Source: a virus. From it: a DNA stretch of 21,585 nucleotides. How positions within the stretch are numbered: the stretch's first letter is position 1; every line of letters begins with the position of its first letter. The position numbers and the translations under genes are program-made. Under the pieces are notes generated by a model. It did no database searches and was not told the origin of the DNA. It worked only from the letters and a program-made list of their open reading frames with translations. Location: positions 1-21,585 of the IMG/VR virus record IMGVR_UViG_3300043409_000035; one strand, written 5' to 3'. Positions 7,950 to 21,031 of the stretch are shown one piece after another.

Positions 7950-8951
7950 ATGGCTTTTGCCAATAGCTCGATCAGCGACATCATTGCGACCAACATTCAA
8001 AGTCGTTCTGGTGAGCTGGCCGACAACGTAACAAACAACAATGCGCTTCTGCGCCGCCTCAAAGAACGCGGTAACGTGAAAACGTTTTCCGGTGGTAACG
8101 TAATCTTGCAAGAGGTTATGTATAACGACAGCACAACCAATAACACGAATTCTTATTCGGGTTACGAAGTGCTCAACGTTTCACAAAACAGCCCGATCAG
8201 TGCGGCGCAATACGGCATCACGCAATACGCTGCTGCGGTTTCGATCAGCGGTCTGGAGATGATCCAGAACAGCGGCAAGGAAGCGATCATCGACCTGCTT
8301 GACGGCCGTATGAACGTGGCCGAGGCGCAGCTGGCTAACCGTATCGGTGGCGATATTTATCTTGATGGTACGGGAAACTCCGGTAAGAACATCACCGGAC
8401 TGGCAGCTGCTGTGCCGGATAGTCCGAGCACAGGTACGTATGGCGGCATTAACCGCGCTACGTTCTCGTTCTGGCGTTCGGTTTCTTTCTCTGGTGTAAC
8501 GAACGGTGGATCTGCTACGTCAGCCTCCAACATCCAGCAATACATGGATTCGGTCGCTGTGCAGCTCATCCGCGGAACCGACAAGCCGGATCTGATCGTT
8601 GCTGATAACAACTACTACCGTTTGTATCTGCAATCGTTGCAGTCGATTCAGCGTATCTCTGATTCGGGATCTTCAATGGCCGGTGCGGGCTTTGCTTCGC
8701 TGAAATATTACGGCGCTGGCATGGCTTCCGACGTTGTGCTTGACGGCGGTATCGGTTCGGCAGCAACAGCAAATCATATGTGGTTCTTGAACACGAAATA
8801 CATTTTCTTCCGGCCGCACGTTGACCGGAATTTCGTGCCGATTGGCGGCGAACGGCAAGCCGTAAACCAAGACGCTATTGTGAAACTGATTGGCTGGGCG
8901 GGCAACATGTGCGCCAGCGGTCCGCAGTTTAGCGGCGTGTTGGTTGCTTAA
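7950..8951 (+). CDS. Major capsid protein (HK97 fold)
   Basis: A 333-residue protein with a strong AAGGAG ribosome site 8 bases before ATG 7950. The start MAFANSSISDIIATNIQSRS, then NNNALLRRLKERG and later ADNNYYRLYLQSLQSIQRI and NHMWFLNTKYIFFRPHVDRN are hallmark segments of a widespread phage capsid family. It lacks a proteolytic prodomain, consistent with a separate scaffold. The C-terminus, SGPQFSGVLVA, matches the usual end of this family. It is the most abundant virion protein and is followed at 12 bases by a probable decoration gene. Confidence 0.93.
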   Translation: MAFANSSISDIIATNIQSRSGELADNVTNNNALLRRLKERGNVKTFSGGNVILQEVMYNDSTTNNTNSYSGYEVLNVSQNSPISAAQYGITQYAAAVSISGLEMIQNSGKEAIIDLLDGRMNVAEAQLANRIGGDIYLDGTGNSGKNITGLAAAVPDSPSTGTYGGINRATFSFWRSVSFSGVTNGGSATSASNIQQYMDSVAVQLIRGTDKPDLIVADNNYYRLYLQSLQSIQRISDSGSSMAGAGFASLKYYGAGMASDVVLDGGIGSAATANHMWFLNTKYIFFRPHVDRNFVPIGGERQAVNQDAIVKLIGWAGNMCASGPQFSGVLVA

Positions 8952-8963
8952 GGAGATATTGAC

Positions 8964-9512
8964 ATGGCTTATACTTTTGACGACAACAAAGCCGGTTTGC
9001 TTCAGATTGCGGTCATCGACACGGGCGTTACTAGCCCGAGTGGTGTCTCATCTGGTAGCGCAACCGTTATCCCAACCCCGCCTAATACGTTGGGTCAGGT
9101 CGAACGCGCTTTCGATCCGACTTATGGCGCCGGTGAATTCATCCTTCTGGTTGGCGTTGCCAACACGACGGTTGGCTCGCTGGTCACGTATGACGGCACC
9201 ACGTATCAGACTACTCTGTGCGCTACTACCAGCAACCAGGCCCGCCCGGTTGCGGTGGCAATGTCTGCCAATCTGGCCGGCACTTTCGGCTGGTATCAGA
9301 TTGAAGGCACTGCGGTTTGCGCTAAATCCACTTCGTCGAACTTTGCGGCAACCGTTGCGGTTGGCGTGAAATCGACCGGCAAAGTCGGCGCCACTGGTTC
9401 GGGTAAAGAAATCCTCGGTGCACGCACCGCGAACGCTGCGACGGTTGCTTCTGCAACCACCACAGTGAACGTGGTGATGAACCGCCCGCATCTGCAAGGC
9501 CGTATCACCTAA
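8964..9512 (+). CDS. Probable capsid decoration/stabilisation protein
   Basis: A 182-residue protein with AGGAG 8 bases before ATG 8964, immediately downstream of the capsid gene. It is beta-rich and Thr/Ala/Val-rich, with the FDPTYGAGEFILLVGVA and VAVAMSANLAGTFGWYQIEG segments common to a phage family placed after capsid genes. The end reads VNVVMNRPHLQGRIT. No enzyme motif is visible. By position and composition it probably binds the outer shell as trimers or covers inter-capsomer gaps, but this has to be inferred. Its stop is in the same frame as the next gene, with a hairpin in between. Confidence 0.75.
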   Translation: MAYTFDDNKAGLLQIAVIDTGVTSPSGVSSGSATVIPTPPNTLGQVERAFDPTYGAGEFILLVGVANTTVGSLVTYDGTTYQTTLCATTSNQARPVAVAMSANLAGTFGWYQIEGTAVCAKSTSSNFAATVAVGVKSTGKVGATGSGKEILGARTANAATVASATTTVNVVMNRPHLQGRIT

Positions 9513-9514
9513 AG

Positions 9515-9554
9515 AAAGGAGAGCAGGCCAGACGACAATCTGGCCTGCAATCTT
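9515..9554 (+). promoter_or_regulatory. Shine-Dalgarno separated from its ATG by a perfect hairpin
   Basis: AAAGGAG at 9515-9521 is a strong ribosome site, but the ATG is at 9555, 33 bases away. GCAGGCCAGA (9523-9532) and TCTGGCCTGC (9539-9548) form a perfect 10-bp stem with the 6-base loop CGACAA. If it folds, only A9522 and AATCTT (9549-9554) remain unpaired, giving an effective 7-base spacer. No alternative ATG, GTG or TTG lies in frame between the upstream stop and 9555. Known precedents exist in phage T4, where a hairpin shortens the distance for gene 25. A terminator reading is weak because no T-run follows the stem. Confidence 0.75.
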
Positions 9555-10856
9555 ATGGATATAGAAATCATCTGCAACACTAACGATGACGAATTATTTG
9601 CCAACGTTAAACTGAATTCTCGATCATGCGATCGCTGGATCGCGCAGGCGCCTGCTCACGATGGCCATGCTGTCATTGTCGGCGGTGGACCGTCTGTTAC
9701 TGACCAGCTCGACATGATCCGCAAACGGCACGCGCTGGGGCAAAAAATATTTGCTCTCAACGGCGCGGCAAAGTTTTTAAACAAAAACAATATCGTGCCG
9801 GAATACCAGGTCATTCTTGACGCACGCCCCGGCAATATTGATCTGATTGGCAAAGCTGATGAGTATCTAATCTCCAGCCAGTGCCATCCTGCGCTGTTTG
9901 ATGCCGTCGAAAACATCACCACTTGGCACCCTGCGGTTGATGGTTTGGATGCGCATTTGCCTGACTATGATGGCGAGTTTGCAATGGTCGGCGGCGGCAC
10001 GACTGTTGGCCTGTCGACCATGTGCCTGGCTTACACAATGGGTTACCGCAAGCTGCATCTGTTTGGCTATGACTGCTCGCACCGTAACGCGATGGGTCAT
10101 GCTTACAAACAGAAAATGAACGACAACGACGTTCTTTGCAAAGTGACGGTGAATGGCAAAGTATTTACCAGCTCGCTGACAATGGCGCGGCAGGCCGAGC
10201 TGTTCCCGCAGGTTTGCAATAATCTGATGGATCTGGGGTGCGTGATCACAGTCGACGGTGACGGGCTAATTAAAGAGGTTGTGGCCGATATGCGCCGGAA
10301 TGCTGTTCCAATGGCCGAGGATGAGAAATACCGCAAAATGTGGTCAATTCCGGCTTATCGTGACACCGCACCAGGCGAATTGATTGCAGAAACCTTCGTT
10401 AAGGTCGCCAATATCACAAAAGAACAGAAAGTGGTGGATTTTGGTTGCGGAACAGGCCGAGGAAGTAAGAAAATACACGAATTGACCGGCGCCACAATGC
10501 AGATGGTCGACTTCAGCAACAATTGCCTGGACTCGAATGTGACGTTTCCCCTGCTTATTGCCGATCTGACAAAGCCCATCGCCGCCGCCGGTGATGTGGG
10601 CTATTGCACCGACGTGATGGAACACATTGCGCCCGAGAACGTCGACACCGTTATCAAAAATATTATGGATTGCGTCGAATCGGCGTTTTTCCAGATCAGC
10701 CTTGTGCACGACAACATGGGTGCGTTGATCGGCCAGCACCTTCATTTGTCTGTTTTCCCCTATGCTTGGTGGTCGAATAAGTTTAAGGAATACCGCATTC
10801 TCTGGTCAGATCAAGATGCAATTAATGCAGTTTTTTATGTAAAAAAGGAGATTTAA
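9555..10856 (+). CDS. DUF115/MptE-like domain fused to SAM-dependent methyltransferase
   Basis: A 433-residue two-domain enzyme. The N-terminal part (about 35-240) has a Rossmann-type VIVGGGPSVTDQL loop at 41-52, ALNGAAKFL, PEYQVILDARPG and MVGGGTTVGLSTMCLAYTMG at 144-163 with GYDCS, a pattern matching DUF115, the family of archaeal MptE (6-hydroxymethylpterin pyrophosphokinase) and of Maf-type flagellin glycosylation factors. The C-terminal part (about 255-433) is a class I methyltransferase, with motif I VDFGCGTGRG at 294-303, an acidic loop at Asp319, and CTDVMEHIAPENVD at 351-364. It lies between the decoration gene and two small virion-type genes, in the same direction. Substrate unknown: glycan, virion protein and a small molecule are all possible. 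Domain calls are firm for the methyltransferase, good for DUF115. Confidence 0.82.
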   Translation: MDIEIICNTNDDELFANVKLNSRSCDRWIAQAPAHDGHAVIVGGGPSVTDQLDMIRKRHALGQKIFALNGAAKFLNKNNIVPEYQVILDARPGNIDLIGKADEYLISSQCHPALFDAVENITTWHPAVDGLDAHLPDYDGEFAMVGGGTTVGLSTMCLAYTMGYRKLHLFGYDCSHRNAMGHAYKQKMNDNDVLCKVTVNGKVFTSSLTMARQAELFPQVCNNLMDLGCVITVDGDGLIKEVVADMRRNAVPMAEDEKYRKMWSIPAYRDTAPGELIAETFVKVANITKEQKVVDFGCGTGRGSKKIHELTGATMQMVDFSNNCLDSNVTFPLLIADLTKPIAAAGDVGYCTDVMEHIAPENVDTVIKNIMDCVESAFFQISLVHDNMGALIGQHLHLSVFPYAWWSNKFKEYRILWSDQDAINAVFYVKKEI

Positions 10857-20414: not shown

Positions 20415-20978
20415 TTATTTTCTATTATGACCACTTTTTATTCTTGAAACATGAGATTGGCTTATTTTAAAATACATCGATATTTCTTTTTGAGATTTAT
20501 TGCTAGAACGAATGTTGATAATATCTTCATCAGTCAATCTTCCATTCCAATGGTCAACTCCATAATGGTGGCGATGCTTTATAGATGTATCAGCATTATT
20601 TTCTGCTTTTGTTCCTACGCGCAAATGTGCTGGATTAACACAAGGAGGATTGTCGCAAATGTGCATAATTATTTTGCCAAAAGGTATTTTTTCTCCAGTA
20701 AAAAATTCATAAGCATATCTATGCGCTCGTACAGAAACTTCACCCGGCAACAAAAAAATCCCATATCCATAATCGTTTTTTGTTCCGGTCCAAAGCCAAC
20801 AAGTCGCAGTTTTTTTTATTCTAGATTCAAAAACATCGGCTGGACCAATTTGAGCAAATTTATGCAATGTTCCATTATTTCGCGCTCGGTTGTAACATGG
20901 TCTGCAAAGTTTTCGTCCGATAGCCTGGGCAATATTACAAACAACGCAAAAAATTGTTCCTCTGGATTGATAGGTCAT
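20415..20978 (-). CDS. Freestanding HNH homing-type endonuclease
   Basis: A 187-residue protein on the opposite strand to all others. AAGGAG lies 6 bases before ATG 20978, so the frame extension to 21014 is not needed. Residues 11-28 have a CxxC-x10-CxxC zinc-finger pattern. Residues 60-120 form the HNH core (CWLWTGTKNDYGYG, then MHICDNPPCVNPAHLRVGT), with His106, Asn115 and His118 as probable metal and catalytic residues. Residues 148-183 look like a helix-turn-helix for site recognition (LTDEDIINIRSSNKSQKEI). The region is AT-rich, as in most homing genes. There is no intron around it. It could promote spread of its own segment between phages. Confidence 0.9.
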   Translation of the reverse strand: MTYQSRGTIFCVVCNIAQAIGRKLCRPCYNRARNNGTLHKFAQIGPADVFESRIKKTATCWLWTGTKNDYGYGIFLLPGEVSVRAHRYAYEFFTGEKIPFGKIIMHICDNPPCVNPAHLRVGTKAENNADTSIKHRHHYGVDHWNGRLTDEDIINIRSSNKSQKEISMYFKISQSHVSRIKSGHNRK

Positions 20979-21031
20979 TTTTATCTCCTTAGTGGAACTT
21001 CTAGTATATACCATATCAATGGAGGTGGCTA
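20979..21031 (-). promoter_or_regulatory. Probable promoter and leader of the HNH gene, facing the tail-fibre gene
   Basis: On the minus strand a TATACT -10 (21003-21008 on the given strand) has TAGCCA 17 bases upstream, matching 5 and 4 of 6 consensus bases; AAGGAG lies downstream of it. The 8-base palindrome GTATATAC is at 21004-21011. The same short gap carries GGAGGT at 21021-21026, the ribosome site of the + strand tail-fibre gene. Not tested experimentally, so moderate to low confidence. Confidence 0.4.

Follow-up and report, generated by a model that had tools for sequence, protein, structure and literature searches.

The window analyzed here, an IMG/VR virus record 21,585 bases long, carries two consecutive plus-strand genes separated by a 42-nt gap. 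The upstream cistron (8964..9512) is an open reading frame for a decoration or other virion structural protein (PHROG 29386, head and packaging, E 1.4e-20). The downstream gene (9555..10856) encodes a protein of 433 amino acids that, judging from the open reading frame, domain matches and N-terminus, is a fusion of an MptE/Maf-like domain with a SAM methyltransferase domain. The N-terminal part matches the MptE-like domain (Pfam, E 1.4e-17), which is related to the Maf/PseD flagellin-modification proteins, the match to NCBIfam FlagModPseD being weak and far under the cut-off. The methyltransferase domain is indicated by a sub-threshold Pfam match and by PHROG 24759, and the enzyme also matches PDB chain 5mu5_A (E 9e-10), an entry named merely 'uncharacterized protein'. 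The gene sits among capsid/decoration and further structural genes, and a fusion of this type, encoded beside capsid genes, possibly modifies the virion or the host surface. In the annotated phage collection, the window has no relatives at the DNA level and a partial protein match only.

The decoration gene ends with a TAA stop codon (9510-9512), which is followed by the Shine-Dalgarno (SD) sequence AAAGGAG (9515-9521), a single A (9522), and the two arms of a hairpin, GCAGGCCAGA (9523-9532) and TCTGGCCTGC (9539-9548), enclosing the 6-nt loop CGACAA (9533-9538). The hairpin is followed by a pyrimidine-rich spacer, AATCTT (9549-9554), and the ATG codon of the enzyme gene (9555-9557). The predicted duplex of the SD with an assumed anti-SD has an energy of -8.7 kcal/mol. 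ATG 9555 is secure as the start because there is no in-frame alternative and because the N-terminal sequence MDIEIICNT is invariant among the enzyme homologues of alignment A1. Between the stop at 9510 and ATG 9555, including the stretch from the hairpin to the ATG, there is no in-frame ATG, GTG or TTG, and the only near-cognate codon in this frame is CTG 9540, within the 3' arm. The assertion of the initial annotation that ATG 9555 is the sole possible in-frame start is thus borne out, and its positions and counts at the junction proved correct when the sequence was re-read.

Predicted fold and spacing at the start codon

The arms of the hairpin are 100% complementary and form a 10-bp stem, so that the structure spans 26 nt in total, and the distance from the SD to ATG 9555 is 33 nt in the linear sequence and 7 nt when the hairpin is excised. 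The neighboring genes starting at 7950, 8964 and 10859 all have strong SDs at 6-7 nt, and the same measure gives 32 nt (linear) or 6 nt (excised) at 9555. No SD was found between the hairpin and the ATG in the window.

The region folds better than shuffled sequence, with z-scores of -3.5 over 91 nt and -6.2 for the 42-nt gap. The loop and both arms are parts of this predicted fold, and the minimum free energy (MFE) structure contains an additional weak pairing between the AGGA of the SD and the UCUU immediately 5' of the AUG, an extension of 3-4 weak pairs past a 2x2 internal loop that contributes about 4 kcal/mol. The predicted mean unpaired probability of the SD in the window is accordingly low, at 0.28. 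The hairpin is predicted to be stable up to about 75-85 C, and the suggestion that its folding could make translation temperature-dependent therefore finds no support; a thermosensor was rejected on this ground. The hairpin region matches no Rfam family above the gathering score.

Conservation of the hairpin among related phages

Homologous junctions were collected from viral contigs by scans that used both the decoration protein and the enzyme as queries. All gapped junctions of the enzyme clade carry a hairpin between the decoration stop codon and the ATG (26/26 distinct gap sequences), and the stem sequences vary widely among these gaps. Each of the 26 folds better than its dinucleotide shuffles (z from -3.1 to -6.2, with at most 3 of 300 shuffles doing as well). 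L058, which is more distantly related, has a gap but no hairpin, and in L056 the two genes overlap.

An SD, defined by a duplex energy of -5 kcal/mol or better with the same assumed anti-SD, lies at the 5' base of the hairpin or close to it in 22 of the 26 distinct gaps, and none of the 26 has an SD between the hairpin and the ATG. Across the 22 SD-bearing gaps, the linear distance from SD to ATG ranges from 30 to 42 nt; excision of the hairpin reduces it to 6-10 nt in 20/22, the longer values for L049 and L050 depending on where the base of the stem is drawn. Four gaps (L023, L052, L099 and L104) retain the hairpin without a good SD 5' of it.

The structure was tested on alignment A4, which consists of 10 distinct rows and was anchored on the flanks, AAGGA on the 5' side and AATCT...ATG on the 3' side, rather than on the structure. 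We rely on this alignment because an earlier choice of the stem in each gap maximized pairing, so that the 100% pairing obtained in that way and the accompanying shuffle test were biased. In A4, AAGGA, AATCT and ATG are fixed while the stem changes, standard pairs are formed in 100 of 100 stem cells, and six of the 10 pairs show two-sided compensatory changes; at one pair (columns 17-28), A-U, C-G, G-U and U-A are all seen. The covariation score of the whole structure is 0.435, compared with 0.199 in shuffled alignments, and was reached by none of 500 shuffles; nor did any slid register of A4 come near it. The hairpin between the SD and the ATG is not a chance occurrence. The comparison of related phages that had been named beforehand as a check on a bypass thus yielded compensatory changes in the stem, retention of SD and ATG, and constant excised spacing. 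The numerous G-U pairs in the stems favor a structure formed in RNA, and a DNA palindrome for a binding protein was rejected because such pairs break the symmetry of DNA but not RNA pairing.

A motif consisting of an SD, a hairpin with 9 bp or more and an ATG at 4-12 nt was sought on both strands of the 1.65 Mb of fetched DNA, a redundant set. The scan returned 22 distinct matches, 20 of which are decoration-enzyme junctions, against 6 per 5 Mb in shuffled sequence.

In the tree of decoration proteins, the hairpin-bearing enzyme junctions belong to one clade of 33 rows with moderate support (82/95). In most members of the sister clade, the start codon of the enzyme overlaps the stop codon of the decoration gene (TAATG or TAGTG), with neither gap nor hairpin (L109-L148, L163-L185). 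We checked whether the hairpin had merely moved in these phages and found none 3' of the enzyme gene. Phages within the sister clade that have another downstream gene in place of the enzyme carry a hairpin after the decoration stop codon, with no SD before it. Their SD follows the hairpin, at 3-4 nt from an ATG located 16-19 nt beyond the foot (L150, L151, L153, L155-L157, L189 and L192), with merely a weak SD after the hairpin in L144. In the enzyme-less L144, L149-L162 and L166, the hairpin after the decoration gene is strong and often has a UUCG loop, and the SD of the next gene is 3' of it. In the junctions compared, then, the SD precedes the hairpin where the hairpin abuts the AUG and otherwise follows it.

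A candidate split ribosome-binding site and competing explanations

The best explanation of these observations taken together is that the intergenic hairpin probably forms part of a split ribosome-binding site and serves to bridge it. The SD lies too far from the ATG in the linear sequence, with no nearer SD available; the stable hairpin brings the spacing to 6-7 nt in the window and 6-10 nt in homologues, within the range of about 5-11 nt expected of such sites; the covarying stem is conserved and the excised spacing constant; no other SD or start is present; the motif is enriched at this junction; and the anatomy resembles that of known sites in phage T4. The shift in SD position with the distance between hairpin and AUG further supports the bypass. 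Under the proposed mechanism, the SD of the methyltransferase gene would be placed directly after the decoration stop codon, the 26-nt hairpin would loop out and leave SD and AUG effectively 6-7 nt apart, and a 30S subunit could then bind both simultaneously. Both the SD and the hairpin start at most about 10 nt from the stop codon, so ribosomes that finish the decoration gene probably help to feed ATG 9555, by reinitiation or coupling. We infer both the use of the hairpin-bridged site by ribosomes and this coupling. The partial pairing predicted between the SD and the pyrimidines before the AUG speaks against the bypass, but is not a strong objection because similar pairing is predicted for T4 gene 38.

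The bypass comparable to that of T4 gene 25 that the initial annotation had proposed therefore stands in its core, but is perhaps not the sole reason for the hairpin. Enzyme-less relatives carry a hairpin where a bypass is impossible, so that in this setting it can have another reason to exist, and the hairpins of the four SD-poor gaps are left unexplained by the bypass. The hairpin may have a second role, in attenuation or in protection of the mRNA 3' end. One version of this idea overlaps with the split site and adds a second role to it: a terminator-type hairpin inside the ribosome-binding site would set the capsid-to-enzyme ratio by attenuation, and its fold would keep the SD usable in read-through transcripts. 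In five homologues (L019, L020, L046, L053 and L092), an SD and an ATG occur together with a stable stem and a U run, as this version would have it, but the clade of the window lacks U runs, and we regard the version as possible rather than probable. Equally tentative is the corresponding scenario for the lineage, in which one hairpin would attenuate transcription after the capsid genes and bridge the SD to the enzyme AUG in read-through RNA, having arisen as an alternative to the stop-start overlap for coupling both genes.

Less likely still is that the hairpin acts mainly as a transcription attenuator (a leaky intrinsic terminator) or as a 3'-end stabilizer for abundant capsid and decoration messages, with the enzyme started by reinitiation and the purine run incidental. 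The homologues that point this way are those in which the tail is U-rich and the E. coli terminator d-score positive (L019, L020, L023, L052 and L053), those with pyrimidine-tailed hairpins at the end of a decoration gene followed by another gene (L144, L150-L162), the canonical terminator in L188, and the four enzyme-type members without an SD. U runs are also present in L046, L047 and L092, and, as in the window, a GC-rich stem right after the stop codon is typical of the intrinsic terminators and attenuators at the ends of capsid genes. An immediate U run after the GC stem is, however, a feature of some homologues only: the tail in the window, AATCTTAT, has an nT of 0.77 and a d-score of -32.7, terminator prediction on the plus strand of the window does not list the junction hairpin, and tails are poor throughout the window and its near relatives (nT 0.5-1.05, d about -30 to -44), although compensatory changes have preserved the stem in them. 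Unlike capsid-end terminators, the stem of this clade is placed between a conserved SD and the AUG at fixed distances, and the preservation of both stem and distances without a U run makes it unlikely that the hairpin of the window is a terminator and nothing else. Attenuation or stabilization would also leave unexplained why AAGGA is invariant at the 5' foot, why roughly 5-10 nt separate the foot from the AUG, and why the SD moves past the hairpin when the AUG is more distant.

An SD-sequestering switch, in which the extended stem (AGGA in the SD paired with UCUU ahead of the AUG) would repress translation until opened by a ribosome, a protein or a small molecule, is suggested by the MFE pairing, the low accessibility of the SD and the invariance of AATCT in A4, but seems improbable given that the few weak pairs involved compete with the stronger anti-SD duplex, that the extension is not kept in L009/L010, and that full opening of the hairpin would separate the SD from the AUG by 33 nt. 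A minus-strand terminator (GCAGGCCAGA...TCTCCTTTCT) was rejected because its T-rich tail is the complement of the SD and inspection of the junction showed no convincing gene on the opposite strand.

Parallels in phage T4 and additional observations

Hairpin-bridged ribosome-binding sites have been documented for very few genes, chiefly genes 25 and 38 of phage T4. Folding changes the spacing from 22 to 5 nt in gene 38 and from 27 to 11 nt in gene 25; expression from the T4 split sites is lost when the structure is destabilized, the structure of gene 25 has been probed with DMS, and the sites are present in close T-even phages only (PMC3014915, which also summarizes the work on gene 25 by Nivinskas 1999 and Malys and Nivinskas 2009). 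Both T4 regions, read from NC_000866, have the order SD, hairpin, AUG. Our search of the open-access literature found no further natural examples, which is weak evidence of their absence.

The site of gene 25 resembles that of the window in that the SD is near the end of the upstream gene, a hairpin lies between SD and AUG, a functional spacing is restored (27 to 11 nt versus 33 to 7 nt), and the arrangement is conserved in close relatives and absent from more distant ones. It differs in that the phage and the gene are unrelated, the stems in the lineage of the window are longer (9-14 bp), GC-rich and covarying, the SD is strong (AAGGAG as opposed to GAGG), the sister clade uses stop-start overlap, and the T4 site is experimentally supported. 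Gene 38 is nearly identical in anatomy, with UAAGGAGA, a GC hairpin, a short spacer and AUG, and its SD is likewise predicted to pair in part with the spacer; unlike the window, it has an extended stem of 8 bp, a UUCG loop and a shorter linear distance, and is a tail-fibre assembly gene. The window junction shows all the features of such split sites that can be checked in sequence. The principle is already known, and the junction described here appears to be a new, well-supported and apparently independent example, identified by comparative analysis, in an unrelated lineage of uncultivated phages.

Gene finders and models of ribosome-binding sites overlook such sites if they expect the SD no more than about 15 nt from the start. 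Covariation over many distinct stems, together with the different solutions found at this junction in sister lineages, provides a natural series on the origin of such sites, in which one can ask whether terminator-like hairpins can become ribosome bridges.

Several additional features were observed. In L186 (1049-1118), the decoration gene is followed by an unrelated gene whose ATG is immediately preceded by a terminator-like hairpin with TTTT. The enzymes of L127, L179 and L180 are about 260 amino acids long, apparently without the methyltransferase domain, and in L006 (3001-3720) a stop codon breaks the enzyme frame after 239 codons, with homology continuing past it. On the minus strand of the window, an open reading frame of 199 amino acids (20415-21014), which has no NCBIfam match, contains by eye an HNH-endonuclease-like pattern, HICDNPPCVNPAHL, and is probably a mobile element.
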